64,000 nucleotides of DNA from Actinomycetes bacterium. Lineage in GTDB: Bacteria; Actinomycetota; Thermoleophilia; BMS3ABIN01. The stretch is from the NCBI GenBank assembly GCA_021787475.1, contig JAJYLW010000001.1:62001-126000 (forward strand), written 5' to 3'. Numbering within the stretch: the stretch's first letter is position 1; the number at the start of each line of letters is the position of its first letter. Of the stretch, positions 1,316-46,056 are shown piece by piece. The notes beneath the pieces are model-generated. The model had not been told where the DNA came from and did no database searches. It was given only the letters and a program-made list of their open reading frames with translations. The translations under genes were made by a program, and so were the position numbers.

Positions 1316-2062
1316 TTACAACGAGACATTGGGCAACCATCCCTGCAGCCACCCGGTCAGCACCTCGATCTGGCCCGTGGCCAAGATAATTCCGAATGCG
1401 ATCAGCAGGGCTCCCGACAAGATCTTGAGGACGCTGAAATGCCGCTTGACCACAGAGAAGGTTCCAATCAATTTTGCAAACAGGAAGCCGGAGAGCACAA
1501 ACGGCAGGCCCATCCCGAGCGCATAGACAAACAGCAGGCTGGCGCCGGCGGCCGGGTCCTGGGTGCCGATTGCCAGCATGTAAATCGATCCCAGCAGCGG
1601 CCCCGTGCAGGGTCCGATGCCGATGGAAAAGACCATTCCCGCCAGGACCACGCCAAACAGGCCCATCGGTCGCCGGAACTGGCGCAGGCGCCGCTCCCGC
1701 TGCAGCCATGCCGGCTGAAAAATTCCCAGGGCAAAGATACCGAATACGATCAGGAACACGCCGGCGAAAATCTCCAGTGGCCGGTGATGTACACCGCTTG
1801 AGCTGATGAACGGCGACAGCGACTGCCCCATGCCGCCGGCGATTGCGCCCTGGAGACTGAAAAGCACGACGAACCCGAGGACGAACGCGGAGCTGGCGAC
1901 TGCCACCTTGCGGGACCTCGCCCCCAGTTCGTCAACGCCCACCCCGGAGACATAGGAAAGATAGCCGGGCAATAGCGGCAGCACGCAGGGGGACAGGAAC
2001 GAAACAAGGCCGGCGATAAACGCCCAGAAAAACGCGATGAATGTTACCTCGGTGATCTGCAA
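1316..2062 (-). CDS. ccdA: Cytochrome c biogenesis protein CcdA (thiol electron transporter)
   Basis: A 248-residue polytopic membrane protein with about six transmembrane helices. Both CcdA/DsbD-beta signatures are present: LSPCVLPLLPGYLSYVSG near residue 25 and IGPCTGPLLGS near residue 150. Their cysteines carry electrons from cytoplasmic thioredoxin across the membrane. It lies between lgt (42 bp upstream) and the TlpA-like gene (about 180 bp downstream), all on the minus strand, which fits a reductive pathway feeding cytochrome c maturation. The start appears to be TTG 2062, because no ATG or GTG precedes the first helix. Confidence 0.92.
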   Translation of the reverse strand: MQITEVTFIAFFWAFIAGLVSFLSPCVLPLLPGYLSYVSGVGVDELGARSRKVAVASSAFVLGFVVLFSLQGAIAGGMGQSLSPFISSSGVHHRPLEIFAGVFLIVFGIFALGIFQPAWLQRERRLRQFRRPMGLFGVVLAGMVFSIGIGPCTGPLLGSIYMLAIGTQDPAAGASLLFVYALGMGLPFVLSGFLFAKLIGTFSVVKRHFSVLKILSGALLIAFGIILATGQIEVLTGWLQGWLPNVSL

Positions 2063-7942: not shown

Positions 7943-9517
7943 TCAGCCCCGCTTCTCCCAATAGCTCGCCTTCCCTCTCCCCTGCGCCGCGATAACGCCG
8001 CCCTTCCTGAGCTCGCTTAGCACCACCAAACTTAACTTGTCCGAACTTTCGGACAGGAGATCGTGGAACAAATCGGTATATTCCTTGTCCACGATTTTTC
8101 CATCTTTAACGAGAATCTTTTCAAAGAAAGCTTTATTGTAAAACTTCCTGACGTTATCGCTGGCTGTCTTGTAGCCGAAGCCACACTGTGTGGCGATTTC
8201 CAGAGCAAGATCGAGGGTTTCTCGCAGCTCACCAAATTGCATATCAATTATTTCCATCCGGTTTTGTGATACTGCCATTTCGTCTGCAATTCGGTTCTGT
8301 TCTTTCTTCATAAGCTCCAAGGAAATCGCATCGGCATAATATGCCTTCATGAGCTTCATTTGCTCGTCAGCAAGCTTGCCGATCCTTTTGGCCAGTAATT
8401 GCTTCTCCATAGCATTGGTCGATTGTTTCGATATCAGCTCCTCATCAAAACGCTTCGAGAGCTTCTTGGCCGTCCTTTTTGGCATCTGCACGTTTTCATA
8501 GAGCTCTTCAACCTGGATTTCCATATCAGTCGCAGAAACATGCTTTGTATGGGTGCAGCCCCGGCCTCTTTTGGTTCCGAGGCAAAAGAAGTAAGTATAT
8601 TTGCCTTTTGCGGTATCGATTGAAAATCTAGACCCGCAATCAGCGCAGTAGAGGGTCCCTTTCAGATAATGGTTGTTCTTTCTGGTTCTAACAGCCACCC
8701 CGTGATTTCTGATCTCGTAAATTGATTTCTCTTTCTGAAAGAGCTGGCGGGAGATCAGTGCCTCATGCTTTCCCGGATATTCAATGCCTTTGTATCTGAC
8801 AACGCTCGTATAAAAAGGATTGGTCAGCATGTTTGATACCGTGACATGAGCCATCGTTTTCTTGCTGTTTTTCTTGTTTGTAAGCCCTCGGTCAAAGAGG
8901 AAATCGTTAATGTCATCCAGCGAGAAATCCCCTGTGGCATAAAGATTGAAGGCTTCTTTGATGTGAGGAGCCGTTTCAGGATCAGGAACAACCAACGCAA
9001 TGTTTCTGGTACCTTCCCGGATGTTTTTGTAACCCAGCGGTGCCTGATGAGGCCAGCCGCCCTGCTTTACCTTTTCCAGCATCCCTTTTTGGACTTCCGC
9101 AGCCAGGTTGGAGGAATAAAACTCAGCCACGATGGCGTGGATGCCTTCGACCAGCTTGCCTGATGCCGTGTCCTCGATATTTTCAACGACGGAGACTAAA
9201 CCGACTTTGGCTTTTTGAAGTGTAGCGGTGATCTCGACGTGATCCTTCAGGTTTCTAGCCAGGCGGTCAATCTTGTGAACAACAACGGCGTTAATTGATT
9301 TATCTTCCTTGACCCTCTTTAGCATCTCCTGAAGCATGGGCCGGTGAGCCGACCTGGCCGATTCGCCTCTATCTGTATATTCATCAACCAGCGTCCAGCC
9401 TTTTTCCTGAATGTACTTGGTGCAGGCTTTTCTTTGGGCAGCAATAGAGTAGCCTTCAGACTCATTAGTCTGAGCTTGTTCCTTTGTTGATACTCGTAAA
9501 TAGATAAGGCAGTTCAT
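7943..9517 (-). CDS. Large serine recombinase (site-specific integrase)
   Basis: 524 residues. The N-terminal resolvase domain has the catalytic Ser in YLRVST (about residue 9) and the Arg-bearing VVHKIDRLARNLKD block. A recombinase domain of about 100 residues follows, then a zinc ribbon (CADCGSRF...FFCLGTKRGRGC, near 300-335), a Lys/Glu-rich coiled coil near 370-430, and a C-terminal tail. This is the architecture of phage or ICE integrases that join attP and attB. Its 3' end abuts the broken HEPN fragment, so one attachment junction probably lies near 7930-7945. Start ATG 9517 is 16 bp after the stop of the VOC gene, and GC content is lower than in the flanking uvr genes. It is the best evidence that this part of the island is an integrated element. 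Confidence 0.93.
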   Translation of the reverse strand: MNCLIYLRVSTKEQAQTNESEGYSIAAQRKACTKYIQEKGWTLVDEYTDRGESARSAHRPMLQEMLKRVKEDKSINAVVVHKIDRLARNLKDHVEITATLQKAKVGLVSVVENIEDTASGKLVEGIHAIVAEFYSSNLAAEVQKGMLEKVKQGGWPHQAPLGYKNIREGTRNIALVVPDPETAPHIKEAFNLYATGDFSLDDINDFLFDRGLTNKKNSKKTMAHVTVSNMLTNPFYTSVVRYKGIEYPGKHEALISRQLFQKEKSIYEIRNHGVAVRTRKNNHYLKGTLYCADCGSRFSIDTAKGKYTYFFCLGTKRGRGCTHTKHVSATDMEIQVEELYENVQMPKRTAKKLSKRFDEELISKQSTNAMEKQLLAKRIGKLADEQMKLMKAYYADAISLELMKKEQNRIADEMAVSQNRMEIIDMQFGELRETLDLALEIATQCGFGYKTASDNVRKFYNKAFFEKILVKDGKIVDKEYTDLFHDLLSESSDKLSLVVLSELRKGGVIAAQGRGKASYWEKRG

Positions 9518-22848: not shown

Positions 22849-23178
22849 GTGACACCGATTGTTTTCGATCGTCATCCTAAATCAAAAAACCAATCTCAGA
22901 ACCACCAGGAAACTGTCGCGATGGTTGCCGAGAGCTGTATCCGGATAGGCTTGCCTACGCCACGCGAAGTCATCATCACCCAGGTTTCCGCACATCTTGG
23001 CGTCCCACCATCATTTGTCTTCCCGCGCCTCAAACGTAAGGACGGCAGCGAGCGCCGCCATACTCATGCAATACTTGTATTCGATGAGCCGGTGTGCGGG
23101 CCTGTCCTGATCGGAGCGGGGAGGTTTCGCGGATATGGTGCTTTGCGACCGATGAACCAGGGGCAAAGAGCAGATTGA
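22849..23178 (+). CDS. csb2: C-terminal Cas6 part of Csb2, separated by the amber codon
   Basis: Same frame as the preceding gene. It contains TPIVFDRHPKSK, IGLPTPREVIITQVSAHLGV and the closing Gly-rich loop GPVLIGAGRFRGYG that marks RAMP/Cas6 folds. It could be made by reinitiation at GTG 22849 (36 bp after the stop) or by readthrough. Otherwise it is the dead tail of a pseudogene. It ends TGA 23176-23178, two bases before the cas3 start, so operon spacing is intact. Codon content and frame show little further decay, suggesting the stop is recent or tolerated. Confidence 0.8.
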   Translation: MTPIVFDRHPKSKNQSQNHQETVAMVAESCIRIGLPTPREVIITQVSAHLGVPPSFVFPRLKRKDGSERRHTHAILVFDEPVCGPVLIGAGRFRGYGALRPMNQGQRAD

Positions 23179-23180
23179 TT

Positions 23181-26100
23181 ATGGGTACCCTTCCCTCTTT
23201 CACGGAATACTTCCAAGCTTTATGGTCTCATGAGCCATTTCCCTGGCAACGCTTGCTGGCCGAGCGGCTGACGAAAGGTGAGTGGCCAAGAGCGCTTGAT
23301 TTGCCAACTGCGGCAGGAAAGACAGCGTGCATTGATATTGCAATTTACGCGCTGGCATCACAGGCACAAAAACCTGTTTGGAAACGCACGGCTCCACGAC
23401 GCATCTGGTTCGTGGTAGACCGGCGCATAGTCGTAGACGAGGCATTCGAACGAGCGCGAGCGATTGCGGAGAAATTGCACAAAGCTACTGATGGGCCGCT
23501 GAAATTAGTCTCCGACCAATTGCGCAAAATCAGCGACACTGAGCGGCCGCTTGCTCTGGGAAGACTGCGCGGCGGCGCGTTACGGGACGATGGCTGGGCA
23601 CGATTGCCTTCCCAGCCTGCGGTGATTACTTCCACGGTGGATCAACTGGGATCACGGCTGCTATTTCGTGGCTATGGACCCAGCGCATTGACCTCACCGA
23701 TTTTTGCAGGTCTGGCTGCTCACGACAGCCTAATTCTGCTGGATGAAGCGCATTTGTCTGTGCCTTTCATGCAGACACTGCACGCAGTTGAATGCTACCG
23801 TGGCAAAGACTGGGCAGAACAGCCGATACAGACGCCTTTTGCCTTTTCCATCATGTCCGCGACACCACCACCAGATATTCCTAAATCTGCCGTGTTCCCT
23901 GGTGCCGAAAAGGAAGCGGCACTTGACCATGCTGAACTTGATCGTCGTATCAATGCTTCCAAACCTGCTGAGCTGGTTTTGGTGAAAAACCGAAAGCTAC
24001 CTGAAAAAGATTCGTTTGTTGAATCGGCAGTGGAGCGGGCTACAGCGTTTGTGAAACGGGAAGAAAGGCAGCGAGTCGCTGTTATTGTTAACCGCGTTCG
24101 AACAGCCGAGCTGATAGCTCAAGCGTTAGGCCAACAATGTGCTGACGAATTTGACGTTGTATTGCTAACGGGTCGTCTCCGCCCCTTTGAGCGTGACCAA
24201 CTCATTGCGCGGTGGAAACCGGTGCTCAAAGCCAACCGACCTGAGCAGCCCGAGAAACCCATAGTCCTGATCTCCACCCAGTGCATCGAGGTCGGCGCCG
24301 ATTTCAGTTTTGATGCGCTAGTGACGGAAGCTGCAAGTCTGGACGCCCTGCGTCAGCGTTTCGGACGACTCAACCGGCTGGGCAGAATTGAATCTGCTTC
24401 ATCGGCAATCCTAATCCGCGATGCAGATGCCAAAACGGGTGCGGATGATTTTATTTACGGCACTGCGATGGCGGAGTGTTGGGGCTTGCTACAAAGACTT
24501 GCTGAGCCACATCCATCAGGTAAACACGCGTGCAAAGTGCTTGATTTCGGCATTGCCGCACTCGATTCTCATTTGCAGTCGATTGAGGATCTAATGCCAT
24601 ATATTTCTCCGACACTGGATGCTCCTTTGTTGTTGCCTTCGCACCTAGATCTTCTTTGCCAAACGTCGCCAAAACCTCAAGTAGAACCTGATATCGAGCT
24701 TTATCTTCATGGCGCCGGTCGCGGGACGCCTGAAGTCAGGATTGCATGGCGCGGAGACCTCGATGAGAAAGATACAGAAAGTTGGCTGGAGACGATAGCG
24801 CTATGCCCGCCAAATAGCGCGGAAACAGTTTCCGTTCCGCTTTACCAACTCCGAAAGTGGCTCGCAAATATAACAGATGACGACGACACGGGTGATGTTG
24901 AAGGCGAATATCATACGGACCCGCGGTCAAAGGAACAGATTCGACCGGTGCTGCGATGGCGTGGACGGGAGAGCTCCGTGGATGGCTCTCTTGTATGCAA
25001 AACCGCTTCTCAAATCCTCCCCAACGAATTAGTTATCCTTCCAGCAGTCTATGGGATAAATGGTCTTGCACAATCAGCGCCTGAGCATGTTTTAGGAGAT
25101 CTGAAAATCGACATTTGGGAGCCAAGTCATGCCGGTACCGGCAAACCTGTCGCACTCCGGTTACATCGTACGGTGTTGAAACCCTGGCTTGATTGTCCGC
25201 CTTTGAAAGCATTGATAGAAGTCGCCGAGAGTCCGGCCTGGGAGCGCGAGAACGTGCAAGACGCTATTGATAAAGTGCTCGCCTACCGCCGGGAGGCCGA
25301 AGAAGAAGCATCCGTTCCGCCGGATTGGTGGATCGCGCTCCTGAAGCAGGTTCGCAACGGATGTTTCGAGCAGCATCCAGCTGGTGGCCTAGTATTGAAA
25401 GCCTATAAAACGAAGGCCCAGGAGGAAGTCGAACAGGAAATATTTGCCGACGATGACGACCTGTTATCAGCTGCCGGAAAAGAAATCAGCCACGTCTTAC
25501 ATAGCGCTTCGGTACAACGCGCCGCTCAAAAGCTTCTGAGCCGCTGCCTGCCAGAAGAATTTCATGAACCACTTAAAACCGCAGCTTATTGGCACGACAT
25601 CGGAAAGTTGGATGAACGATTCCAGATCATGCTTCGCGAAGGTGATGAGCTGGCTGTTTTGACAGGTGAACCTCTTGCAAAATCCGTGGCTGTGCCAAGC
25701 TCGCCCCGACGGCGTCGCGCCATTCGAACAGCAAGTAAATTGCCAAAAATTTTCCGACATGAAATGCTGTCATTGCAGCTTACTGAACACTTATTCCCGA
25801 ATGTTGACAATGATACGCCTAACGATCTGATGTTGCACGCGATTACCAGCCATCACGGATACGGAAGACCTTTTGCGCCTATAAGTCTCGATGAAGAACC
25901 GTTGCCTATTCAAGGAGTACACGGTGGGGTTGCTATCGAAGTTGAAAATCAGGAACGTGCATCTTGGCCTGCGGCACATACATTTAAATCTGGTATTTCC
26001 GAACGGTTCTGGCGTTTAAACCGACGTTATGGCTGGTGGGGATTGGCTTACTTGGAAGCAATCCTGCGATTGAGTGACTGGTATGGCAGTCAGTGGGTTT

Positions 26101-27311
26101 TTGACAAGGCGCCAGAGGAGGAAGAAGCTGGATCGAAATCATCACCTTCAAGAGTCATTCGCGATAATGGCAATTCTTTAGTTCTTGAAGGCATTGATGG
26201 TTCGATTCCTCTTGGTTTTCTTGCTGCTGTCGGGACATTGGTTGTGCTTCATGAATCAGGTCATCATGAATCGCGTCTTCATTGGCATCGCGGCGTGACA
26301 TGGAAACCTGTTCTGACAAACTTACTAACATTTAATCAAGAAGAATTAGCAAAAATTATTGCTGATGCTTTACATGGTTCGTCTGTAACAAGTCAAGCGC
26401 AAGCAAATCTTAAAAGCGCACGAATCCAGATGGACAAGAAAAAAACTGAAATTACAAAACAAATTAAATTGATAAAAAGCCGAAAACTTCGCGGCCAGGA
26501 ACGTGAAGAAGCAATGGAAGAAACAGTTAAACCTCTTGAAAGTGATTACAAGCTACTACGTACAAAGTGGCTCAGTGCCTTACGCGACGCTGTCCCTCGA
26601 CCAGAGCTTGCACTCGGGAAACACATTGATTGTAATCGCGAAGAGTATCGTGAGCATTGCAGGATGTTCCTAAAGGACGCGTGTTGGAACAGCAGGGAAC
26701 CGCTCGACCTAATGGTAGCGTTTGCAAGTGATGTAATTCTGCATGAGAACAATCTTAAGAGAAAGCAGGGTATGGTTTTGCCAATGCAATTTTGCTTTAT
26801 TAAGGGAGCCAGTCAACAGTTTTTCCTTGATACTGTGCGCCAACTCATGGAACAAGTAAGACTGGAAAAGATTGCAGATGCCCTTTTTAAAATGTGGACG
26901 TACGAAGACGAAAAGCTATCTTTGAGATGGGATCCTATTGAAGCCCGACGTTACGCTTTAATGGATATAAACCCTTCGAACATTTGCGCTCGTACAGTTT
27001 GGATGGCAAATTTGCTTGCCTATCGCGCACTTGTTTTATTTCCCTCTGCACCGACGCTCTGTGGTCTATCTAGCGTCGGATGGCGAATCGACAGAGGTAC
27101 CAAAAAAACTGATTTTAACTGGGCCTTATGGAAACAGCCAATTGGCCCTGACGAGGTTCGATCGATTCAAGTATTATCAGAACTCTATCAAAAAGAGCCG
27201 GATCGTAATTCATTAAGAGCCATGGGAATTGAAGCAGTTTTCGGGCACAAAAAGTTATGCTTGGAAAGTCGAGCACTAACTTCAGCCCTGCAGTTGAAGT
27301 ATAATTATTGA
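23181..27311 (+). CDS. cas3: Type I-G Cas3 helicase-nuclease with C-terminal HD and fused Cas8-like extension
   Basis: 1376 residues from ATG 23181. The SF2 helicase part comes first: DLPTAAGKTACID near residue 32, LILLDEAHL near 185, STQCIEVGADFSFD and QRFGRLNRLG near 390. The HD nuclease is C-terminal to it (TAAYWHDIGKLDERF near 804, ITSHHGYGRPF near 890), the order known for type I-G. A further 370 residues include IPLGFLAAVGTLVVL near 1010, a Lys-rich coiled coil near 1080-1130, and LSLRWDPIEARRYALMDINP near 1249. This tail resembles the Cas8-like large-subunit or Cas3-extension proteins of type I-G. No separate csx17 gene exists here, so target recognition and degradation may lie on one chain. 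Codons become more AT-rich in the tail. Confidence 0.93.
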   Translation: MGTLPSFTEYFQALWSHEPFPWQRLLAERLTKGEWPRALDLPTAAGKTACIDIAIYALASQAQKPVWKRTAPRRIWFVVDRRIVVDEAFERARAIAEKLHKATDGPLKLVSDQLRKISDTERPLALGRLRGGALRDDGWARLPSQPAVITSTVDQLGSRLLFRGYGPSALTSPIFAGLAAHDSLILLDEAHLSVPFMQTLHAVECYRGKDWAEQPIQTPFAFSIMSATPPPDIPKSAVFPGAEKEAALDHAELDRRINASKPAELVLVKNRKLPEKDSFVESAVERATAFVKREERQRVAVIVNRVRTAELIAQALGQQCADEFDVVLLTGRLRPFERDQLIARWKPVLKANRPEQPEKPIVLISTQCIEVGADFSFDALVTEAASLDALRQRFGRLNRLGRIESASSAILIRDADAKTGADDFIYGTAMAECWGLLQRLAEPHPSGKHACKVLDFGIAALDSHLQSIEDLMPYISPTLDAPLLLPSHLDLLCQTSPKPQVEPDIELYLHGAGRGTPEVRIAWRGDLDEKDTESWLETIALCPPNSAETVSVPLYQLRKWLANITDDDDTGDVEGEYHTDPRSKEQIRPVLRWRGRESSVDGSLVCKTASQILPNELVILPAVYGINGLAQSAPEHVLGDLKIDIWEPSHAGTGKPVALRLHRTVLKPWLDCPPLKALIEVAESPAWERENVQDAIDKVLAYRREAEEEASVPPDWWIALLKQVRNGCFEQHPAGGLVLKAYKTKAQEEVEQEIFADDDDLLSAAGKEISHVLHSASVQRAAQKLLSRCLPEEFHEPLKTAAYWHDIGKLDERFQIMLREGDELAVLTGEPLAKSVAVPSSPRRRRAIRTASKLPKIFRHEMLSLQLTEHLFPNVDNDTPNDLMLHAITSHHGYGRPFAPISLDEEPLPIQGVHGGVAIEVENQERASWPAAHTFKSGISERFWRLNRRYGWWGLAYLEAILRLSDWYGSQWVFDKAPEEEEAGSKSSPSRVIRDNGNSLVLEGIDGSIPLGFLAAVGTLVVLHESGHHESRLHWHRGVTWKPVLTNLLTFNQEELAKIIADALHGSSVTSQAQANLKSARIQMDKKKTEITKQIKLIKSRKLRGQEREEAMEETVKPLESDYKLLRTKWLSALRDAVPRPELALGKHIDCNREEYREHCRMFLKDACWNSREPLDLMVAFASDVILHENNLKRKQGMVLPMQFCFIKGASQQFFLDTVRQLMEQVRLEKIADALFKMWTYEDEKLSLRWDPIEARRYALMDINPSNICARTVWMANLLAYRALVLFPSAPTLCGLSSVGWRIDRGTKKTDFNWALWKQPIGPDEVRSIQVLSELYQKEPDRNSLRAMGIEAVFGHKKLCLESRALTSALQLKYNY

Positions 27312-27450
27312 TTTTCAAGTTCGGTCCAGTTGTTATTCGGAGCCACGCGCTCCCCGTTCCTTGACAACTAAATAAACTCCTCTCCTCAAGTTAATTCAGC
27401 TTGCGCCGATTGTCTTTCGGTCAATTCTTTATTCGACCGGAGATGGTTAC

Positions 27451-29434
<1,984 letters not shown>

Positions 29435-29643
29435 ATCCGTCCTTCAATTACTGCCGAATTGACTCGAGCGCTTATATGCCGGAAGCGGTATCGTTGACCC
29501 CTCGAAACAGCGTCTGAATGAGGGTTTATGGTTTAAAAAGGACCGACATCAAAAGAGGAATGAGTGTTGTTTTAAATCGTAAAGCTGACTTCTCGAATAA
29601 TACCCTTAAAAACAGCTTAAATATAGGCTATATTGGAGGGGTT
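29435..29643 (+). promoter_or_regulatory. CRISPR leader region
   Basis: 209 bp of non-coding DNA between cas2 and the first repeat. The last 80 bp are AT-rich with several A/T runs, as is usual for leaders that carry the array promoter and integration signals. No gene is visible. The direction is inferred from the cas2 side and from the degenerate repeat at the far end. Confidence 0.6.
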
Positions 29644-31340
29644 ATTTCCATGGCAGAAATGCCATGGCCTCATTGAAGCTCCCCGTTGGCCGCTGCGGCC
29701 TCTGCGTCGTGGAGGTGATTTCCATGGCAGAAATGCCATGGCCTCATTGAAGCTCGATTCCTCGATTCCTCGATTCCTCGGGGATTTCCATGGCAGAAAT
29801 GCCATGGCCTCATTGAAGCTGGAGCATTATGATGATCTGGTAGGGGGTGAGGAGATTTCCATGGCAGAAATGCCATGGCCTCATTGAAGCTACCACTTTG
29901 CCGGGGGAGGCAATCCCGTCGCCGAATTTCCATGGCAGAAATGCCATGGCCTCATTGAAGCGGCTCTTATGGGGTTCATTACCGCCCTCATCGCCGTATT
30001 TCCATGGCAGAAATGCCATGGCCTCATTGAAGCTCTCCCCAATAATTCTATCTTATATTTTTTATTTTGATTTCCATGGCAGAAATGCCATGGCCTCATT
30101 GAAGCGGCGACACTCCTGCAAATTGAGGCTGATTCTTGGGGAGATTTCCATGGCAGAAATGCCATGGCCTCATTGAAGCGCAGGCAAGGCGCGATCTGTA
30201 TACATCTCTGTCCGTTATTTCCATGGCAGAAATGCCATGGCCTCATTGAAGCCAGGATGAACACGCGCGGCACAAACAGCACGCGCAGCATTTCCATGGC
30301 AGAAATGCCATGGCCTCATTGAAGCTCTTACTATCAGATCGTCGATGCCCTTAACATGCAGAATTTCCATGGCAGAAATGCCATGGCCTCATTGAAGCAG
30401 TCAAGACGCCCTCATCGAGGTCGTCCTGTATTCAATTTCCATGGCAGAAATGCCATGGCCTCATTGAAGCTTTTTCACCACGGCGTCATGGACGTGTGCA
30501 GAGAGGATTTCCATGGCAGAAATGCCATGGCCTCATTGAAGCATCAGAAGCCCAACCATCGGAACCCTTACCAGAGAAATTTCCATGGCAGAAATGCCAT
30601 GGCCTCATTGAAGCGGCCGGGACAATCAGGGTAATCGGCAAAGGTGGTAAAATTTCCATGGCAGAAATGCCATGGCCTCATTGAAGCGTATTACCGTTCG
30701 CGGGGGCCATAATTAGCATATACCATTTCCATGGCAGAAATGCCATGGCCTCATTGAAGCTGGTGATACATAACCTTGTTGGCCGCTTGGGCCGCGCATT
30801 TCCATGGCAGAAATGCCATGGCCTCATTGAAGCTGCGGACCCGCTGGAAAGCATAACATTCTCTCCAGATTTCCATGGCAGAAATGCCATGGCCTCATTG
30901 AAGCAAGAAAATTGGCGATAGTTATAGTGGTTTGGTCACGATTTCCATGGCAGAAATGCCATGGCCTCATTGAAGCTTCTCCAGTCTGGGCGGCGGCGTG
31001 GAGCGCTGGCGCTATTTCCATGGCAGAAATGCCATGGCCTCATTGAAGCCGGCGTTAATCCCGGGATTGATAAATTTTTAAATTGTATTTCCATGGCAGA
31101 AATGCCATGGCCTCATTGAAGCCCTACTAGGTCATCATAATTTTCCAAGACACCCTTCAAAATTTCCATGGCAGAAATGCCATGGCCTCATTGAAGCAAG
31201 AAAATTGGCGATAGTTATAGTGGTTTGGTCACGATTTCCATGACAGAAATGCCATGGCCTCATTGAAGCTTATCAACTCCGGCTATGTCGGCCAACCGTT
31301 TCGCATTTCCATGGCAGAAATGCCATGGCCTCATTGAAGC
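29644..31340 (+). CRISPR. CRISPR array, 24 repeats of 36 bp and 23 spacers
   Basis: Repeats start ATTTCC and end CTCATTGAAGC. The first is 29644-29679, the last 31305-31340. All look identical except repeat 23 (31234-31269), which has G to A at position 10. Spacers are 35-39 bp, except spacer 2 (29754-29783), which is 30 bp and built of a TCGATTCC unit. Spacer 18 (30905-30940) and spacer 22 (31198-31233) are identical, so 22 spacers are distinct. The repeat contains a perfect 8-bp hairpin CCATGGCA-GAAA-TGCCATGG with a GNRA-type loop, which would be the Cas6 processing structure. The array follows the cas genes and ends 130 bp before the toxin-antitoxin pair. Confidence 0.98.
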
Positions 31341-37072: not shown

Positions 37073-38506
37073 TCAGGCAGACTGCTTCAGCGTTTTAATC
37101 TTGTGGCGGCAGAGATTGACAAGCGAGCGGGGGTCAAATGCCTCCAGCTCCGTTTCCCAGGCTCCCGGTGGGTTTTTTGCGAAGCTGCGGCCGGCATTGC
37201 GATATTCGCGGATGGCGCACTTCGAGTTTCCGTTCTGCTCGAACAGGCTTGCCAGATGAAAATAGGCAAGGCTGAAGTCAGGATCAAGGTAAAGAGCGCG
37301 GCGGAAATCCTCAAGGGCCGCCGCCAGTTCGCCCCTTTTTTCGTGTGCAATCCCGAGCAGGAAATAAGCCTCTGCATCGGCGATGTCCCGGTCCAGACCC
37401 TGCTTGATCAAATTCGCCGCCTGCTCGAACTCGCCGGCGTCGATATGGCGCCTGGCCCTTTCCTTTACCTCTTCCGGCGGCGGGCCGGCGGGCCTGCATT
37501 CGTGCCTATGGGTCTCGCTCTCCCGCCGGCCGGGTAGCTCCGTGGGACCGGCTCTCCCGCTCAAGCGGCGGTCGCCGGGGCCGCGCCGGTCCCGCCGGAC
37601 CCCTGGCGGCAACCCGGCATTGCGCAGGCGCCGGTCCGGGATGAAGAGGCGCCCGTCTTCCTCACCGGCGCCAGGTTTCCGGTAAATGAATGTGCTTCCC
37701 ATCTCCACCAGGCCGTATTTGGTTGACATTTGCCAGAGAGTCTCGGAATGGCCGAGGAAAAGGTAGCCGCCTGAATTTATAATATCATAAAAATGCTCTA
37801 TGACAAATTTGGCCGTCTCACGGTTAAAATAAATGATGACATTACGGCAGAAAACGGCGTCACAGCCGGCGCGGCTCTCGACCGGCAACGGATCCCCAAC
37901 GAGGTTGTGGCGCTGAAACCGTACCAGCCGCCTGACATCGTCAATTACCCGAAAACCACCGTCTTCGGAATAAAAGTAGCGGCGCCGGTGCAGACGGTCA
38001 ACGCCGGTGATCTTGCGCTCCGGGTACCAGCCCCGGATTGCCTGGCTCAGCGCGGCTTCGTTCAAGTCGGTGGCAAGTACCCGGATGTCCCAGGAGTCAG
38101 CCCCGGGGAGCACATCGAGCAGGGTCATGGCGACCGAGTAGGGCTCCTCGCCGGTAGAGCAGCCGGCGCACCAGATGCGAAGCAGGCGCCGATCATCATT
38201 GCGCCGGGCCAGCTCCGGAATGACATATTGGCGCAGGGCGTCAAACTGGGGCTGGTTGCGAAAAAACTGCGTCTCCTGCACGGACAGGTACTCGACCAGC
38301 CGGCTCAACTCGTTGCCGCCGCCGGCGCCATTGATAAAATCATAATACTTGCCCAGATCGGGGGCGCCGACGATGCTGGCCCGGTGCGCCAGGCCGGACT
38401 TTAAAACCTCGGCTTTGTCAACTGAGAAATTAATGCCGCTGGCCTGCCTGATCATGCGACTGAAGCGGCCAAAATCCGCAGCAGTCAGTTCGTACCGGCT
38501 AGACAT
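37073..38506 (-). CDS. cheR: CheR-type methyltransferase with C-terminal TPR (WspC-like)
   Basis: 477 residues. The N-terminal helical domain and SAM-binding fold carry LSVQETQFFRNQPQFDAL, IWCAGCSTGEEPYSVAM and DAVFCRNVIIYFNRETAKF, the markers of receptor glutamate methyltransferases. After a Pro/Arg-rich linker come TPR units near 350-460 (DAEAYFLLGIAHEKRGELAA and FSLAYFHLASLFEQNGNSK). CheR-TPR proteins are typical of alternative chemosensory systems such as Wsp. It is the last gene of a six-gene cluster on the minus strand, and should methylate the receptor encoded at 43689. Confidence 0.93.
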   Translation of the reverse strand: MSSRYELTAADFGRFSRMIRQASGINFSVDKAEVLKSGLAHRASIVGAPDLGKYYDFINGAGGGNELSRLVEYLSVQETQFFRNQPQFDALRQYVIPELARRNDDRRLLRIWCAGCSTGEEPYSVAMTLLDVLPGADSWDIRVLATDLNEAALSQAIRGWYPERKITGVDRLHRRRYFYSEDGGFRVIDDVRRLVRFQRHNLVGDPLPVESRAGCDAVFCRNVIIYFNRETAKFVIEHFYDIINSGGYLFLGHSETLWQMSTKYGLVEMGSTFIYRKPGAGEEDGRLFIPDRRLRNAGLPPGVRRDRRGPGDRRLSGRAGPTELPGRRESETHRHECRPAGPPPEEVKERARRHIDAGEFEQAANLIKQGLDRDIADAEAYFLLGIAHEKRGELAAALEDFRRALYLDPDFSLAYFHLASLFEQNGNSKCAIREYRNAGRSFAKNPPGAWETELEAFDPRSLVNLCRHKIKTLKQSA

Positions 38507-38568
38507 GGGCGTCTCCGTCAGCGCCTGCCGGCAAACGAGGCGGCCACTCCGGCTTCTTTTTTGATGTG

Positions 38569-40077
38569 CTAGGCATCACCGGCGCTCACGACCCGGTTTT
38601 TGCCCGCCTTCTTCCCCTCATATAAAGCGGCGTCGGCCGCCTGCACAAGGCTGGCGCCGCCGGCCTTTTTTGACTGCGCCAAACCGGCCACACCCAGGCT
38701 CAGGGTGACAGCGCCGCCGCCGGGCAAATTAAAATCATGGGCCTCCACTGCCTCGCGGATGCGCTCGGCCACGTCAACCGCCTGCCCCACGCCGGTCTGG
38801 GGCAACAGCACCGCGATTTCTTCGCCGCCATAGCGGGCGACAATATCGATGTCCCTCACCTCGCGCGTGATCACTCCCGCCAGAGCGGTTAATACTTCAT
38901 CTCCCGTCTGATGCCCAAATGAATCGTTAACCATCTTGAATGAATCAATGTCGGCCATAATCAGGGACATGTCGCTGTCGTAACGGCCGGCGCGGTTGAA
39001 TTCCTGCTCCAGCAGTTCGTAAAAATGGCGATGATTGTAAAGATGTGTCAACCCGTCCGTGATGGCCAGGCGGCGCGCGCCTTCGTGGAGGCGGGCGTTG
39101 TCAACGAGCAGGCCGGCGGGGTTTTCGATGATCTTGAGCAGCCGTTGAGTCGATTCCAGAAATGCGTCTGTCCGGGGGCTGGTGAGGACGAGCACGGCAA
39201 TCGTCTCGGCGCGGGCCTTCAGCGGAATCACCAGCATCGATTTGATGCCGTCCAGCTCCGGACGCTCACCCTTCAGAAAAACAGGGTCTGCGTCAACCTC
39301 GACGGCCAACTGGTCCGCGCTTGCGCCCGGCCGCAGATACTGCGCCGCCGCCCCGGTTGCCTGCCGGCGCGCCTCCTCAAAATAGGAAGCCCCCACGGCG
39401 CAATGAACGTGGATGAAAAACCGCAGCTCGTTGGTCAGCGCAATCGCGCAGATATCGCAATCGGTCACCTTCGCAATCAGAGTCAGGACCGAATCAATCG
39501 TCACGGCGCAATCCTCGCTAAGAGTGTTCAGCTTGCTGATCTCGTTGATCAAGGTGGCCTCGTAAAGCTTCCGGTCCAGCAGGTCGTTTACGCGCGAGAG
39601 CACATCCACCTCCTGCTCACCCGGGGCAGGCCGGTTGGGCATCGGGCAACGCGGCCCCGCCCCCCCTGCGTCCGGACCGCTTTTTTCGAGCAGATCGTGA
39701 ACCGCGTCGGCAAGGCCGGCCAGTTGGAAGTCTTTGGCAACGTAGAGGTCGGCGCCGGTTTTCAGCCCCCAGAATTTGTCAGTCTCCTGCGTCTTGCTTG
39801 TCAGCATGATGACGGGGATATGCGCGGTGCGGTAATCATCCCTGAGCAGGCGGCAGACCTGGTAACCGTTCATTTTTGGCATCTCGATATCGAGCACTAC
39901 CAGATCCGGGTTCTCCTGAAATGCCCGCCCGGCCGCTTCAATGCCGTCGCCGGCAATGATGACGTCAAAGCCTTCGCGACCCAAGACTGTCATGATTATC
40001 CGCTGCTGGGTGGGGCTGTCTTCCGCAACCAGGATGCGGTAGGGATTCTTCTTTTGTTCCAGTGAAGCAACTTGCAT
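38569..40077 (-). CDS. REC-GAF-GGDEF diguanylate cyclase response regulator (WspR-like output)
   Basis: 502 residues. The receiver has ILVAEDSPTQQRI and the phospho-Asp in LVVLDIEMPKMNGY. A GAF-like sensor is near 170-330. The C-terminal GGDEF domain has active site RYGGEEIAVLL and, exactly five residues before it, an RxxD inhibitory site (RDID). It should make c-di-GMP when phosphorylated by the CheA at 41258. It lies between cheR and cheB, with 20 bp to cheB. The cluster has no stand-alone CheY, so this is probably the system output instead of flagellar control. Confidence 0.93.
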   Translation of the reverse strand: MQVASLEQKKNPYRILVAEDSPTQQRIIMTVLGREGFDVIIAGDGIEAAGRAFQENPDLVVLDIEMPKMNGYQVCRLLRDDYRTAHIPVIMLTSKTQETDKFWGLKTGADLYVAKDFQLAGLADAVHDLLEKSGPDAGGAGPRCPMPNRPAPGEQEVDVLSRVNDLLDRKLYEATLINEISKLNTLSEDCAVTIDSVLTLIAKVTDCDICAIALTNELRFFIHVHCAVGASYFEEARRQATGAAAQYLRPGASADQLAVEVDADPVFLKGERPELDGIKSMLVIPLKARAETIAVLVLTSPRTDAFLESTQRLLKIIENPAGLLVDNARLHEGARRLAITDGLTHLYNHRHFYELLEQEFNRAGRYDSDMSLIMADIDSFKMVNDSFGHQTGDEVLTALAGVITREVRDIDIVARYGGEEIAVLLPQTGVGQAVDVAERIREAVEAHDFNLPGGGAVTLSLGVAGLAQSKKAGGASLVQAADAALYEGKKAGKNRVVSAGDA

Positions 40078-40096
40078 ATCAGGGGTAAAGTATTTT

Positions 40097-41254
40097 TTAC
40101 CCTCCCTCTGAGCCTATCCCAAAGGGAGGCGGAGACATTATTTCCCCGCCAGAGAGGGGCGGAAATGAATCCTTCCCTCCCTGAAAAAAATATCCGCAAA
40201 TGGCGGAGCCAATTTCCGGCAGGGGCACGACTTCCTCCACCACGCCAAGCTTGATGGCCTCCTTTGCCATGCCAAAGATGACAGATGTCTGCTCATCCTG
40301 GGCCAGCGTGTGGCCGCCGCTCTCAAAGATGGCCCGCATGCCGCGGGCGCCGTCGTTGCCCATCCCGGTGAGAATCAGGCCAAGTGCGCCCCGGCCGTAT
40401 GCCCTGGCCACCGACTCCATCAGCACATCCGCCGAAGGTTTGTGCGGGCCGGGGGCATCCTTGTCAACCAGCGCGATCCGCTGCTCTATCGTAACCGTCA
40501 TATGAATGGAATCAGGCGCAATGATCACCTCGCCGGGCCGGATGGAATCGCCATTCTCGCCTTTTTTCACTTTCAGGCGGCAGCTGCCGTTCAGCCACTC
40601 AACCAGCCCATCCGTAAAGCCCTCGGCAATATGCTGCACGGCGACGATGCCGGCCGGCAGTTCCGGCGGCAGCGAGGCGAGGATCATCTGCAGGGCCTGC
40701 GGCCCGCCGGTGGACGAGCCGATCGCCACCAGCTTGACCCTGACGGAGCCAGGCACCGGCAAAGGTTCACCCGGCCGCCTTGTCAAACTGGCCCGCGGAT
40801 GGGTGATTACCTGCACGCGGGAAAGCTGTTTTACCTTGTTTCGAATACTAGCCGCAGCCGCGTCAAACTCTTCCACAGAACCGGCGGCCGGCTTGCAGAT
40901 CACATCGACAGCGCCCGCCCCCAGCGCCCGGGCAACATTGGCCGAACCGGCCTTTGACACCACCGAGCTGACAACCAGGATGGGAACTGGTGTGTAAGCC
41001 ATGATCTGCTCAATGGCGGTGATGCCGTCCATAACCGGCATCTCGACGTCCATTGTCACCAGGTCGGGCTTCAGCCGCGCCGCCTCGCGGACGGCCTCGC
41101 GTCCGTTGGCCGCCACGCCGACCACGGTGATTCCGGGGTCCGCCTCCAGCACGCGCCTGAGCATTAGCCGGACTGTGGCCGAATCATCGGCCACCAGCAC
41201 CCGGACGGCTGCCGCCATTTTTGCCGCCCCAGCCGTAGTTACGCCTGCATCCAT
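40097..41254 (-). CDS. cheB: CheB methylesterase/glutamine deamidase response regulator
   Basis: 385 residues with an N-terminal receiver (VLVADDSATVRLMLRRVL, phospho-Asp in MDVEMPVMDGI). The C-terminal esterase has its catalytic Ser in AIGSSTGGPQAL, His in VQHIAEGFTDGL and Asp in ILTGMGNDGARGM. It removes methyl groups from chemoreceptors for adaptation. It starts 3 bp after the CheA stop, so translation is coupled. Several upstream in-frame residues (MDAGVTTAGAAKMAAAVR) leave the exact start slightly uncertain. Confidence 0.95.
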   Translation of the reverse strand: MDAGVTTAGAAKMAAAVRVLVADDSATVRLMLRRVLEADPGITVVGVAANGREAVREAARLKPDLVTMDVEMPVMDGITAIEQIMAYTPVPILVVSSVVSKAGSANVARALGAGAVDVICKPAAGSVEEFDAAAASIRNKVKQLSRVQVITHPRASLTRRPGEPLPVPGSVRVKLVAIGSSTGGPQALQMILASLPPELPAGIVAVQHIAEGFTDGLVEWLNGSCRLKVKKGENGDSIRPGEVIIAPDSIHMTVTIEQRIALVDKDAPGPHKPSADVLMESVARAYGRGALGLILTGMGNDGARGMRAIFESGGHTLAQDEQTSVIFGMAKEAIKLGVVEEVVPLPEIGSAICGYFFQGGKDSFPPLSGGEIMSPPPFGIGSEGG

Positions 41255-41257
41255 ATC

Positions 41258-43624
41258 TCAGGCAACAAGGCGTTTGACGGTATCAAGGAGGTTCTGCTGA
41301 TCGAAACTTCCTTTTGCCACGTAAGCGTTTGCGCCGGCTTCAACGCCGCGGCGTCTGTCTTCATCGCTGTGCCTGGAAGTGACCATAACAATCGGGATGT
41401 CCATGGTTTCATTATTCCGGCGAATCGCCGCGGTGAGGCTGACCCCATCCATGCCGGGCATTTCCACATCGGTGACTATGCAGTCCACCGGCCGCTCAAG
41501 CAGGCGCGCCAGGGCGTCATTTCCGTCTACGGCGGTCCTCACCTCAAATCCGGCCATCTCGAGAATGTTCCGCTCCAGCTCGCGCACCACCAGCGAGTCC
41601 TCCACCACCAGCACTGCTGGCCTGGCCGCGGAGACGTCCGCCCCGGTTTCCCGCTCCGCCGGTCGGGGGCCCTGCTTGCCGTCCTTGACGTCCCGCACCA
41701 TCGCGCTCGCGTTTAAAACCAGCACCGCCTCGCCGTCACCCATTATCGTCACCCCCGCCACATACGGCATCCGGGGCAGGAACCCGCCCAGCGGCTTGAC
41801 CACGATCTCCTGCTGCCCGACCAGTTTTTCCACTTCGAAACCAAGGAGGAAGCCTTCGGCCGCCGCCACAACAACCTGAATCCTGCCGCCGCTGCGGGCG
41901 GCCGTCTCGCCTCCAAGAAACTGCGTCAGATCGACAAGGGGTATGGCGCTCCCCCGAAGCAGAAAACCGGGATGATTGCCGAGAGACTGCAGGTCCTGCT
42001 CCCGGACGGCCACCAGTTCCTGGATTGACGCCAACGGGAGGATAAAACGGCGCCCCCCGGTCTCCACCAGCATGCCGTCGATCACCGCCAGCGTCACCGG
42101 CAATGATACCAGAAAGCGGGCGCCTGCTCCAGGCGCCGACTCAACCAGCACCGATCCTTCTATCTCCTCAATGTTATTCTTGACCACGTCCAGGCCGACA
42201 CCGCGGCCGGAAAGCGTCGTCACCGATTCGGCAGTGGAAAAACCCGGACGAAAGATAAGCCTGAGCGCATCCTCGGAGCTTATCTCCCGCCCCCGCTCCA
42301 ACAGTCCCTTCCGCACGGCAGTCGCCTTGATCTTTTCCGGGTTGATGCCGGCGCCGTCATCGGCAATCTCGATCTCGACCCTGTCGCCGCGCTGGGCGGC
42401 GCTTAAGCGGATCAGCCCCTGCTCGGGCTTGCCTTGCGCCGCCCTGTCAACCGGTAGCTCAATGCCATGGTCGACCGAGTTGCGGATGATATGCATGAGC
42501 GGATCGGCTATTTGCTCCAGGATGCGCTTGTCCATCTCCGTTTTTTCGCCGGCGATCTCCAGGCTCACTTTTTTGCCGCAGGCGCCGGCCGCATCGCGCA
42601 CAACCCGCGGGTAAATGGCGAAAATCGAGGAAAGCGGCAGCATGCGCACGCGCATCGCCCGCTCCTGAAGGTCGTCGAGCGCAACACGGCGCGCAACCGT
42701 ATTTTCCTTCAGGCCGGCTGCGGCCGCCCCCAGCCGGGTCACGGCCGCATCAAACTCACTCTCGATCCTGTTAACCTGTTGCCTGATTTGATCAGGCGGC
42801 TGCCCGCCGGCGGCGCTTTTTTTGGCAAGCCGGCGGGAGAGCGCGGCAAATGCGCTCTGAAGCTCAGCCGTCTGCTTGTAGATGCCGCTAAATTCCCGCG
42901 ACCGGTCTTCAGCGCCCGCTTGATTGACAAGAATCTCTCCCATCCGGTTGAGGAGGTTATCAAGTTTGTTGATGCTAACACGGATGGTGGACTCTGACTG
43001 GGTGGCCGGCGCGGCTGCCTTGGCGACCTGCAGCCCGGCCAGCGCTTTTGCGGTTCCGGATTCCGGGGGCGGTGGTGCTGCGCCGGTCCCGGCGACCATC
43101 AGCTCCGGACGGCCAAGGGCGCGCCGACGGCCCTCTTCTGCGTCCGGCTTCGGTGCAGCGGCCGCTTCATCTTTCTTTTGCACCTCGCCGTCCTCCTTAC
43201 CGGCGGCTGCCACCGCCGGGTTGCCTCCCGGAGCGGCGCCAATCTCGGTGAGGCGGCCGAGCAATCCCGATACGTCGGCGGAGGCGGCGGGAGCGTTGAG
43301 ACCCTCTCCCGGGAGCAGTTCTTCAATCCGGTCGAGCGACTCCAGGAGAAGATCGGCTACTTCGCCGCCCATCTGCACCTGTCCCTTCTGAACCGTCTCG
43401 AGAATACTCTCGACGCGATGAGCCAGCTCCCGGATCGCCTCCAGGCCCATCATTCCGGCGGAGCCTTTCAGCGTATGCGCCTCGCGAAACAGCTTCTTTA
43501 AAAGCTCCTGGTTTCCGGGCGCCGCCTCGAGCGCCATCAGGCCGCTGCTGAGCGTCTGCAATCGCTCCAGCGCCTCGGCTCTGAAGGTCTGAATGAACTC
43601 ATTGTCATCCGTCCAGCTGTTCAT
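41258..43624 (-). CDS. cheA: Hybrid CheA histidine kinase with C-terminal receiver (WspE-like)
   Basis: 788 residues. The Hpt domain has the phospho-His in REAHTLKGSAGMMG near residue 49. A long Ala/Pro/Glu-rich linker replaces a visible P2 domain. The dimerisation helices, the ATPase (HIIRNSVDHGIE, IADDGAGI, GRGVGLDVV), a CheW-like regulatory domain and a C-terminal receiver (VVEDSLVVRELE, phospho-Asp in CIVTDVEMPGMDG) follow. The fused receiver is usual in Wsp and other non-flagellar pathways. It is flanked by the receptor gene upstream and cheB downstream. Confidence 0.95.
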   Translation of the reverse strand: MNSWTDDNEFIQTFRAEALERLQTLSSGLMALEAAPGNQELLKKLFREAHTLKGSAGMMGLEAIRELAHRVESILETVQKGQVQMGGEVADLLLESLDRIEELLPGEGLNAPAASADVSGLLGRLTEIGAAPGGNPAVAAAGKEDGEVQKKDEAAAAPKPDAEEGRRRALGRPELMVAGTGAAPPPPESGTAKALAGLQVAKAAAPATQSESTIRVSINKLDNLLNRMGEILVNQAGAEDRSREFSGIYKQTAELQSAFAALSRRLAKKSAAGGQPPDQIRQQVNRIESEFDAAVTRLGAAAAGLKENTVARRVALDDLQERAMRVRMLPLSSIFAIYPRVVRDAAGACGKKVSLEIAGEKTEMDKRILEQIADPLMHIIRNSVDHGIELPVDRAAQGKPEQGLIRLSAAQRGDRVEIEIADDGAGINPEKIKATAVRKGLLERGREISSEDALRLIFRPGFSTAESVTTLSGRGVGLDVVKNNIEEIEGSVLVESAPGAGARFLVSLPVTLAVIDGMLVETGGRRFILPLASIQELVAVREQDLQSLGNHPGFLLRGSAIPLVDLTQFLGGETAARSGGRIQVVVAAAEGFLLGFEVEKLVGQQEIVVKPLGGFLPRMPYVAGVTIMGDGEAVLVLNASAMVRDVKDGKQGPRPAERETGADVSAARPAVLVVEDSLVVRELERNILEMAGFEVRTAVDGNDALARLLERPVDCIVTDVEMPGMDGVSLTAAIRRNNETMDIPIVMVTSRHSDEDRRRGVEAGANAYVAKGSFDQQNLLDTVKRLVA

Positions 43625-43688
43625 AGTTTAAAAAACGGCATCCGTCAGCAATTCAGCCGGCGCACCGGGGCTGCCCGCCCCCCCGCCG

Positions 43689-45353
43689 CTATTCAAGCCT
43701 GAATTCGGCGATGGCTTCCCGCAGCTCGGCCGCATATTTGCTCAGGCGCTCCGTCGCTTCCTGGGTCTGCCTGGCACTGGCGGCCTGCTGGCGGCTGGCG
43801 TCGGAGATGTTTGTCATCGCCACCACTACCTGCTCGCTGGCGCTCTTCTGCTGCTGGGTCGCCACCGATATCTCCTTGGCGGCAGCGGTATTGTCGGCGA
43901 CCACTGACATGATGCTTTCCAGCGAGCGGCCGGCGTTACCGGCCAGCTCGACGCCCTGCTCCACTTCCTTGGCGCTCTCTTCGGTCGCCATGATCGTGCT
44001 GTTTGTTTCCGCCTGAATTTCATTAATGAGCGCTTTGATCTTGTCGGTGGCGCCCACGCTTTCTTCCGCCAGACGCCGGATCTCGCTCGCCACCACGGCA
44101 AAGCCGCGGCCCTGCTCGCCGGCGCGCGCCGCTTCGACGGCTGCGTTTAGCGCCAGCAGGTTGGTCTGGTCGGCAATGTTGTTGATAATCTCCAGGATTG
44201 TGCCAATATGCTGGGACTTCTCGCCCAGGGCGAGCGTTTTTTCCGCTACCTTGCCGACCTTTTCGTTGATCGTTTGCATGCCTTCAATGGTAGCCGTCAC
44301 GGCGGCTTGCCCCTCGCCGGCGTGCGCCAGCGTCTCTTCAGCCACGCGCGCTACCGACTCTGCTGTTTCCGCTATCTGCTTGGCCGTGCCGGCAAGCTCT
44401 TCGATTGTCGCCGTTGTCTCGGTCACAGCCGCCGCCTGTTCCGAAGAGGCACTCACTTGCTGTTCGATGGCCGCCCGGATCTCGCCCGATGCGACCGCGG
44501 TCCGCTCCCCCATCTCCTTGATCTTGGCGCTCAGGTTGCCCAGTCCATCCGTCATCTCGTTGAAGCTCCCCGCCAGGATTCCCAGCTCATCGCCCGACTT
44601 AAGCTCGACGCGTTGGGTAAGATCGCCAGCGGCGATCCTGCCGATAGCGGCGACAACGTTTTTCAGCGGCCTGGTGATCGCAACCCGGAGCGTCACGATC
44701 AGGCTGATGACCACGAATGCCAGCGTTCCCAGCAGGAACAGAATTATCTGGAGTTTGGTAGAAGATATGCTGCCATCCACCTGCTGCATTGAGGTTGAAA
44801 CGATCACGGCGCCGCGCATGCTGTTGCTGCTACCGTGGCAACCCTGGCAGGCGGTTTCGTTAGGGAGAGGGTGAATCTCGGTTAACACGCGGCCGCTCGC
44901 GCTCCCCTCGTAATAAACGGCCGGCTCGCCGGTGGTTAGCGCCTGGTTCAGCTTCTGCGCCATCAGGCCGGTGACATGGCCCGAGCCGCTGAAGACTTCG
45001 GAGCCGTCAGTCCTGACGATCATGACCCGGTTCAGATCGCCGATGCCATTCAAATCCTGAAGCGCCTTGACAGTAAAATCCGGCTTCCCAGCCAGCATGC
45101 TTGTCTTGATGCCGTTGGCAATCAGTTGACTGGCGACGTGATTGTTGTTTTCTTGCTGCGCAATCAGGTTATCTTGTTCCTGCCTGATATTTATGACGGC
45201 GAAGGCGCTTAACCCCAGCACCAACAATAAAGTCACCAGCCCCAGAATCTTGGCCTCCACGCTTCTCCTGAAAATATTCCTGATCCCGTTACCGCTGTCG
45301 GCTCTGCCGAGATTGCCTCTGCCAAGCGGCGGCGCGCTGCTTTCAATTGCCAT
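43689..45353 (-). CDS. Methyl-accepting chemoreceptor with periplasmic haem c-type motif
   Basis: 554 residues. Membrane helix 1 ([16 protein letters not shown]) and helix 2 ([18 protein letters not shown]) bracket an extracytoplasmic domain of about 150 residues of DUF3365-like style. It holds one CxxCH motif (CQGCH near 171), consistent with covalent haem. A HAMP domain and a long signalling coiled coil with the conserved tip ([20 protein letters not shown]) follow. A bound haem would let the receptor read redox state or a gas such as NO or O2. Its start overlaps the end of cheW. CcdA and TlpA at 0.5-2 kb could supply haem attachment capacity. Confidence 0.9.
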
Positions 45354-45912
45354 TTTTGCCCCCCGGTTGAAGACTTTGGCCCTGACCTGAATTATTGCTC
45401 ATCACGCTTGTGAAACGGGCTTTTTCAACAAGTTTGTCGATATCAAGAACTCCCGCCAGCTTCCCTTTCAAGCCGACCTGGGCAACAATGATCTCACGCA
45501 ACCGCTCATTCAACGTCCGCAAAGACTGCTCCAGTGAAGTGGCGGGCGGATTTTCGACGCCTGTCACTTCTTCAACCAGGAGCCCCAGCGTCGCGGCCGA
45601 AGCTTCGACTACCACGATTCTGTCTTGCGGCCCGATCTGAAGAGGCGGATGATCGAGCAGCACTGCCATATCAGCCACTGCCAGAATCGATCCGCGCAAG
45701 TTAATCAGGCCGCGGATGTACGGCGGCGACCCCGGCAGCCAGGTCATCCGAGGCACCCTGATAACCTCTTGCACTTTGTCAATCTCCACAGCGAAACATT
45801 CACCGCAAATAAGCATGACAATCAAGGAGGCCGACTCCAGGGCTTGTCCCGTCAGCGCGGCCAAATCTGCTTCCGGCGGCTCCGGTTCAGTTTTTTTGTT
45901 CAGCGCTTCCAT
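45343..45912 (-). CDS. cheW: CheW-type coupling protein
   Basis: 189 residues. The CheW double beta-barrel is evident from [39 protein letters not shown] and [15 protein letters not shown]. The ends are low-complexity (acidic N-terminus, Gln/Gly/Asn C-terminus). It links the receptor to the CheA. It is the first gene of the cluster and overlaps the receptor gene by 11 bp. The 174-bp upstream region also holds the rpsA terminator, so the cluster promoter should lie between 45913 and about 46026. Confidence 0.92.
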
Positions 45913-46026: not shown

Positions 46027-46056
46027 AAAAAAAGCGCCCCGCCGCAGGCGGAGCGC
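46027..46056 (-). terminator. Rho-independent terminator of rpsA
   Basis: Read on the minus strand, a 10-bp GC-rich stem (GCGCTCCGCC with one G-T pair) with a 3-nt loop is followed by seven T. It ends about 30 bp after the rpsA stop and separates rpsA from the chemosensory cluster. Confidence 0.9.

Follow-up and report, generated by a model that had tools for sequence, protein, structure and literature searches.

A chemosensory operon of six genes was found on the minus strand of a 64,000-nt stretch of DNA (positions 62,001 to 126,000 of contig JAJYLW010000001.1, assembly GCA_021787475.1; the whole stretch is called the window hereafter), which belongs to an actinobacterial metagenome-assembled genome (MAG) of 1.84 Mb that is 98.7% complete. 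The genes encode a CheW coupling protein, a methyl-accepting chemotaxis protein (MCP) with a haem-c type sensor, a hybrid CheA kinase, a CheB methylesterase, a diguanylate cyclase (DGC) and a CheR methyltransferase fused to tetratricopeptide repeats (TPRs). We regard it as fairly likely that they form a stand-alone, non-flagellar chemosensory pathway by which an extracytoplasmic haem-c signal is converted into cyclic di-GMP (c-di-GMP). The features of the operon, in window coordinates, are:

37073..45912 (-): the six-gene operon, cheW-mcp-cheA/REC-cheB-dgc-cheR/TPR in order of transcription (open reading frames (ORFs) and Pfam)
45343..45912 (-): CheW, 189 aa, the only CheW of the operon (PF01584, 3.7e-28)
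43689..45353 (-): MCP, 554 aa, the only MCP of the genome; transmembrane segment (TM) 1, extracytoplasmic haem-c sensor, TM2, HAMP and a signalling domain of 40H length
45096..45098 (-): Met86 of the MCP, putative axial haem ligand in the invariant SML motif, aligned with a Met of GSU0582
44835..44849 (-): haem-c attachment motif CQGCH, aa 169–173 of the MCP, invariant in 13 sequences
41258..43624 (-): CheA, 788 aa, the only CheA of the genome; Hpt-dimer-HATPase-CheW-REC (Pfam)
40097..41254 (-): CheB with a receiver (REC) domain (Pfam)
38569..40077 (-): REC-GAF-GGDEF DGC, 502 aa (Pfam)
39889..39891 (-): phospho-acceptor Asp63 in the REC domain of the DGC
39130..39501 (-): GAF domain of the DGC (PF01590, 5.8e-10), conserved in relatives
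38845..38856 (-): RDID inhibitory (I-)site of the DGC, R408–D411; R[DE]xD is kept in relatives
38815..38829 (-): active-site motif GGEEI of the DGC, aa 417–421
37073..38506 (-): CheR fused to TPRs, 477 aa (PF01739, 3.9e-57, plus TPR families)

In a Pfam search of the window ORFs, all six proteins matched the expected families far above the cut-off, with the following sets: CheR plus TPRs; Response_reg, GAF and GGDEF; Response_reg and CheB_methylest; Hpt, H-kinase_dim, HATPase_c, CheW and Response_reg; HAMP, MCPsignal and Mcp40H-20_sensor; and CheW. The key catalytic and phospho-accepting residues are kept throughout, including H50 of the CheA Hpt domain (in HTLKG) and D719 of its REC domain, D69 and GSSTGG of CheB, and the signature CAGCSTGEE of CheR, and the genes are separated by gaps of -11 to 64 nt. 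A preliminary description of the window, made from its sequence, had proposed this gene set with its domain fusions, and both the ORFs and the residues bear it out. It had also proposed that a multidomain DGC takes the place of CheY as the output; the domains of the operon agree with this, and neither a CheY nor flagellar genes were found in the operon or its flanks.

The identical six-gene order is present in 12 relatives (genomes of the same family); one of these has the operon in two pieces on separate contigs, and in a second the DGC gene runs off the end of a contig. The flanking rpsA and coaE genes are mostly retained within the genus, while in other genera the operon lies at other sites; it is therefore the operon and not its neighbourhood that is conserved. 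One MCP per genome (PF00015) was detected in 13 of the 19 family genomes, that of G010 being split over two contigs, and one CheA (PF02895) in 14, the additional genome being G002, in which the MCP is truncated where its contig stops; the remaining 5 contain neither. Flagellin and FlhA were absent from all 19 genomes, control genomes being positive, so that a flagellar (Fla) chemotaxis system was rejected, the non-flagellar function suggested earlier is supported, and the nearby flagellar operon with CheY that would have spoken against it is missing.

The evidence for a haem-c sensor lies in one stretch of the MCP. The CxxCH motif falls between the two TM segments, within a sequence with matches to two haem-c sensor domains of known structure, those of Geobacter GSU0935 and GSU0582 (3b42 and 3b47; 3e-6 and 5e-6), and the best Foldseek matches of the predicted sensor fold are the same two structures (E values of 1e-9 to 9e-7), followed by the sCache domains of WalK. 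In all 13 receptor sequences covering the sensor, both the CxxCH and the SML motif with Met86 are invariant, and they stay fixed while the remainder of the sensor diverges down to 40% identity. The motif did not occur in any of 20,000 shuffles of the MCP sequence, which rules out a chance CxxCH. Like the sCache_heme (Tll0287-like) domains, the sensor thus has a CxxCH within an extracytoplasmic Cache/PAS-like domain, and on these alignments it is a relative of the GSU0582/GSU0935 sensors. The receptor had been described beforehand as a haem c chemoreceptor with a periplasmic CxxCH, to be given up if relatives had lost the motif; the match to a known structural family favours that assignment and no such loss was seen. 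Covalent attachment of haem c to the MCP sensor is inferred from these data, and genes for the System II cytochrome c maturation proteins ResB/CcsA are present in the genome. An ORF at 1316–2062 (-) of the window also resembles, by eye, a CcdA-type thiol-disulfide/cytochrome c biogenesis membrane protein.

The GSU0582 and GSU0935 sensors have an axial Met on the haem, which is proposed to leave upon oxidation, and they were proposed to be sensors of redox potential with midpoints of -156 and -251 mV; oxidised GSU0582 also binds nitric oxide (NO) tightly (PMC8396549). A 2026 preprint classed the fold as sCache_heme and reported the properties of NO sensors, not of oxygen sensors, for its signalling-fused members (PMC12889525). 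No second family with the sensor domain turned up in 199 genomes of the class or in 396 of the phylum. The only match outside the family was in the Nitrospirae bacterium JdFR-81 (L050, 3277–5067, +), where a histidine kinase carries a related haem-c sensor with SML and CRRCH kept; since this kinase also retains SML, the Met of this motif is suggested to be a general feature of the haem-c sensor subfamily. L050 had been a candidate haem-c MCP outside the family and was rejected as such, being a histidine kinase. Apart from one unclassified record, the named relatives in which the sensor was found are actinobacterial MAGs, deposited under the labels Thermoleophilia, Actinomycetes or Gaiellales; the location outside the Proteobacteria noted earlier is thus upheld, and since these labels disagree, we assign the lineage to the phylum only. 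Dissimilatory sulfur genes have been pointed out in one of the named relatives, Gaiellales SURF_19 (PMC7596348).

Compared with E. coli Tar/Tap (36H), the signalling domain of the MCP is longer by two symmetric insertions of 14 residues each and therefore fits class 40H, whose hairpin is 28 residues longer than that of 36H; its length equals that of WspA. On the output side, the GGDEF domain of the DGC has the canonical specificity Asp in GHxxGD (GHQTGD) together with GGEEI. In the Hypr enzymes, which make cyclic GMP-AMP (cGAMP), Ser/Thr takes the place of this Asp and is combined with GGDE[F/Y] (PMC6456294). The predicted product of the operon is therefore c-di-GMP, and cGAMP as product, or membership of the Hypr group, was ruled out by the Asp in GHQTGD with GGEEI. 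The c-di-GMP output with GGEEI and RxxD, as described beforehand, accordingly stands as a prediction from residues; the GAF domain is a possible second input.

The gene set had been matched to the logic of the Wsp system (WspA-F, WspR); this likeness holds, whereas descent from Wsp is not supported. Wsp shares with the operon a 40H-type MCP, CheA-REC, CheB, CheR-TPR and a REC-GGDEF output without CheY (PMC8846402), but it has two CheW proteins (WspB and WspD), another gene order and a non-haem, four-helix-bundle sensor, and WspR lacks a GAF domain. Only one CheW per operon was found in the window and the relatives, the operon alone having been searched. The references were three wsp operons, identified in plasmid records from the genes they contain. 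In the tree of REC domains, from which CheA receivers were left out, the receiver of the DGC groups with PleD and REC-GAF-GGDEF receivers (support 92/94), apart from WspR, and its GGDEF domain, 42–44% identical to that of WspR, is likewise not grouped with it; orthology of the output enzyme was therefore rejected, and the enzyme appears to have been recruited independently of WspR. The operon thus functions, by its gene content, like Wsp, but Wsp orthology was not found: the single CheW, the other gene order, the GAF domain and the separate position of the DGC domains set it apart.

Better precedents exist for both ends of the pathway. For the input they are GSU0582 and GSU0935 (Pfam Mcp40H-20_sensor), which have a homologous extracytoplasmic haem-c sensor, HAMP and a class 40H signalling domain (PMC8396549); here, in contrast, the haem receptor is the sole MCP, is fixed beside CheA and a DGC, and is actinobacterial, and we found no report of GSU0582 or GSU0935 in a cheA-DGC operon. 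For the MCP-CheA-DGC logic it is the Esn network of G. sulfurreducens (EsnA MCP, EsnB CheW, EsnC CheA, EsnD DGC), in which a class 40H MCP-CheW-CheA pathway leads to a REC-GGDEF protein that makes c-di-GMP, in the setting of redox physiology (PMC5585712, PMC6456294). The Esn genes are scattered, however, and EsnA has a cytoplasmic GAF domain and no periplasmic domain, hence no haem input. CheR-TPR plus a multidomain response regulator is the signature of the alternative cellular functions (ACF) class (PMC3447774), and the operon has both. Systems of this class are rare in Actinobacteria, with six species counted in one study (PMC10746217), and CheR-TPR, reported to be nearly absent from Gram-positives, is nevertheless present in this actinobacterial operon. 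The system is built from known modules, namely the Geobacter haem-c receptor family and Esn/Wsp logic, in an unflagellated actinobacterial host; no description of the operon was found in the literature searched, of which the coverage was partial.

Type IV pili are the likely target of the pathway, judging from the genome's gene content. PilB and PilT are both encoded, and PilB carries an MshEN domain (1.5e-19). MshEN is a c-di-GMP-binding module. In addition, a riboswitch was found in front of the pilin gene:

L071 3493–3575 = G000:C10:101492–101574 (-): c-di-GMP-I riboswitch directly before a type IV pilin gene (Rfam RF01051, 59.0 bits; gathering score 35 bits)

In 13 genomes such a riboswitch lies no more than about 5 kb from pilB; the sequence 3' of it was read in four relatives, and in each a pilin ORF follows immediately. 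The base preceding GGCAAACC (position 20 in our numbering) is U here and A in most relatives; every pilus-locus copy that was read has A or U there.

Taken together, these features suggest the following pathway: i) the receptor would sit in the membrane with its haem-c sCache/PAS-like domain outside the cell, ii) a redox change of the haem or a diatomic gas such as NO would, by analogy with GSU0582/GSU0935, alter the axial ligation, putatively of Met86, and send a signal through HAMP, iii) the 40H hairpin, CheW and hybrid CheA, whose architecture is evident, would form a signalling array adapted by CheR-TPR and CheB, iv) CheA would phosphorylate Asp63 of the DGC, with its own REC domain as a sink or relay, by analogy with Wsp, v) the activated GGDEF domain, to judge from its residues, would make c-di-GMP, limited by the RxxD I-site, and vi) c-di-GMP would have type IV pili as its main target, by way of the MshEN domain in PilB and of the riboswitch before the pilin gene, both elements being present. 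In this deep-branching actinobacterial lineage, the operon probably lets the redox state or a gas outside the cell switch surface pili and not swimming.

Several observations weigh against this pathway. The sensor model is of moderate confidence (pLDDT 76.8), with a high root-mean-square deviation from the domain-swapped 3b42 and 3b47. The genome contains 14 GGDEF domains, and the link from the operon's DGC to the pili is therefore not specific. Since position 20 of the riboswitch is U/A rather than the G of c-di-GMP-selective aptamers, its ligand preference is uncertain and it may not be strictly selective for c-di-GMP; a G20A mutant binds cGAMP, according to a review (PMC7288161). The CheA tree is compatible with more than one class for this kinase: the CheAs of the haem operons form one clade (100/99), separate from WspE (100/100) and outside the flagellar-type group, but a clade joining them with Wsp is worse by 4.6 log-likelihood units (approximately unbiased test, p-AU 0.077; long branches) and one joining them with the flagellar type gives p-AU 0.073, neither being rejected. 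Haem loading, signal, phosphotransfer, pilus action and the opposing arm described below are inferred from sequence.

Type IV pilus motility might instead be controlled directly, in a Tfp-like manner, through the receiver of CheA or a CheY-like regulator elsewhere, with the DGC as a side branch. CheA does have its own receiver, and the host has type IV pili with PilT and no flagella. Since the DGC is part of the operon wherever a relative's sequence suffices to show it, no single-domain REC gene is present in the operon, and the pairing of CheR-TPR with a multidomain regulator marks ACF pathways (PMC3447774), we consider this unlikely. It is improbable, too, that the haem is structural or vestigial and the receptor responds to contact with a surface or to the state of the membrane. 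The operon logic is Wsp-like, and WspA still senses surfaces after replacement of its periplasmic domain (PMC8846402); on the other side, CxxCH and SML are invariant in a sensor that otherwise diverges down to 40% identity, and the genome has the same sensor on two kinases of other architecture. Horizontal acquisition of a true Wsp system from Proteobacteria would account for the same protein set minus one CheW and for the GGDEF identity to WspR, and the CheA tree does not reject it; the REC and GGDEF trees, the gene order, the single CheW and the inserted GAF domain make it very improbable.

Within the favoured haem-c to c-di-GMP pathway, the signal could be NO rather than redox potential, the rest being unchanged. 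The two variants do not exclude each other. For NO speak the behaviour of the signalling-fused sCache_heme domains and the tight binding of NO by oxidised GSU0582, whereas the proposal of GSU0582/GSU0935 as redox sensors, and a presumed anaerobic subsurface life (from the sources of the MAGs), fit redox at least as well; NO is a serious candidate for the signal, though well short of probable.

Two further proteins of the genome carry haem-c motifs in kinase architectures:

L072 3943–6893 = G000:C24 (-): hybrid histidine kinase with CQKCH, adjoining a REC-HD-GYP protein
L073 6794–9631 = G000:C31 (-): 945-aa protein; CLQCH lies in its N-terminal sensor region, and it also has HAMP, HisKA, two receivers and a GGDEF domain in which no GGDEF motif can be recognised

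The sensor of the hybrid kinase belongs to the same sCache-haem family as the MCP sensor (36–40% identity), and the kinase adjoins REC-HD-GYP in the genome of the window and in 14 of the 15 relatives examined (15/16 genomes). Since this second haem-c sensor kinase lies beside a phosphodiesterase, a haem-controlled push-pull on c-di-GMP is suggested: the hybrid kinase would be the probable opposing arm, and haem-c input appears, from gene content, to be wired to both synthesis and breakdown of c-di-GMP. A tentative extension, which we hold to be possible rather than probable, is that the lineage runs this push-pull (MCP array to DGC, hybrid kinase to HD-GYP), so that extracellular redox or NO sets pilus assembly through PilB-MshEN and the pilin riboswitch, with an output recruited independently of Wsp. 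In most relatives, another HAMP kinase-like ORF of about 530 aa lies just upstream of the haem-c hybrid kinase.

If the pathway is as proposed, a single operon would hold it completely, from extracytoplasmic haem c to c-di-GMP, with one chemoreceptor and no flagella. This would be a simple natural system for learning what haem-c chemoreceptors report, a question obscured in Geobacter by many receptors and several overlapping che clusters. CheR-TPR/ACF-like c-di-GMP chemosensing would be extended to an unflagellated actinobacterial lineage, suggesting that the coupling of chemosensory arrays to DGCs arose more than once.

The operon is flanked by housekeeping genes, rpsA and polA upstream, and coaE, a lytic transglycosylase gene (SLT) and uvrB downstream. 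One element was noted between rpsA and cheW:

46034..46056 (-): hairpin resembling an intrinsic terminator, 3' of rpsA (consensus match only)

Since this hairpin separates rpsA from cheW, the operon is suggested to have its own promoter. Elsewhere in the window, a large serine-recombinase-like ORF at 7943–9517 (-), near a uvrA-like gene at 4702–7506, was recognised by eye and may mark an integrated element. A CRISPR array of the Rfam CRISPR-DR16 type with 23 repeat matches lies at 29641–31340 (+), with ORFs at 23094–29142, of which that at 27451–29142 resembles a Cas4-Cas1 fusion by its sequence, no search having been made.

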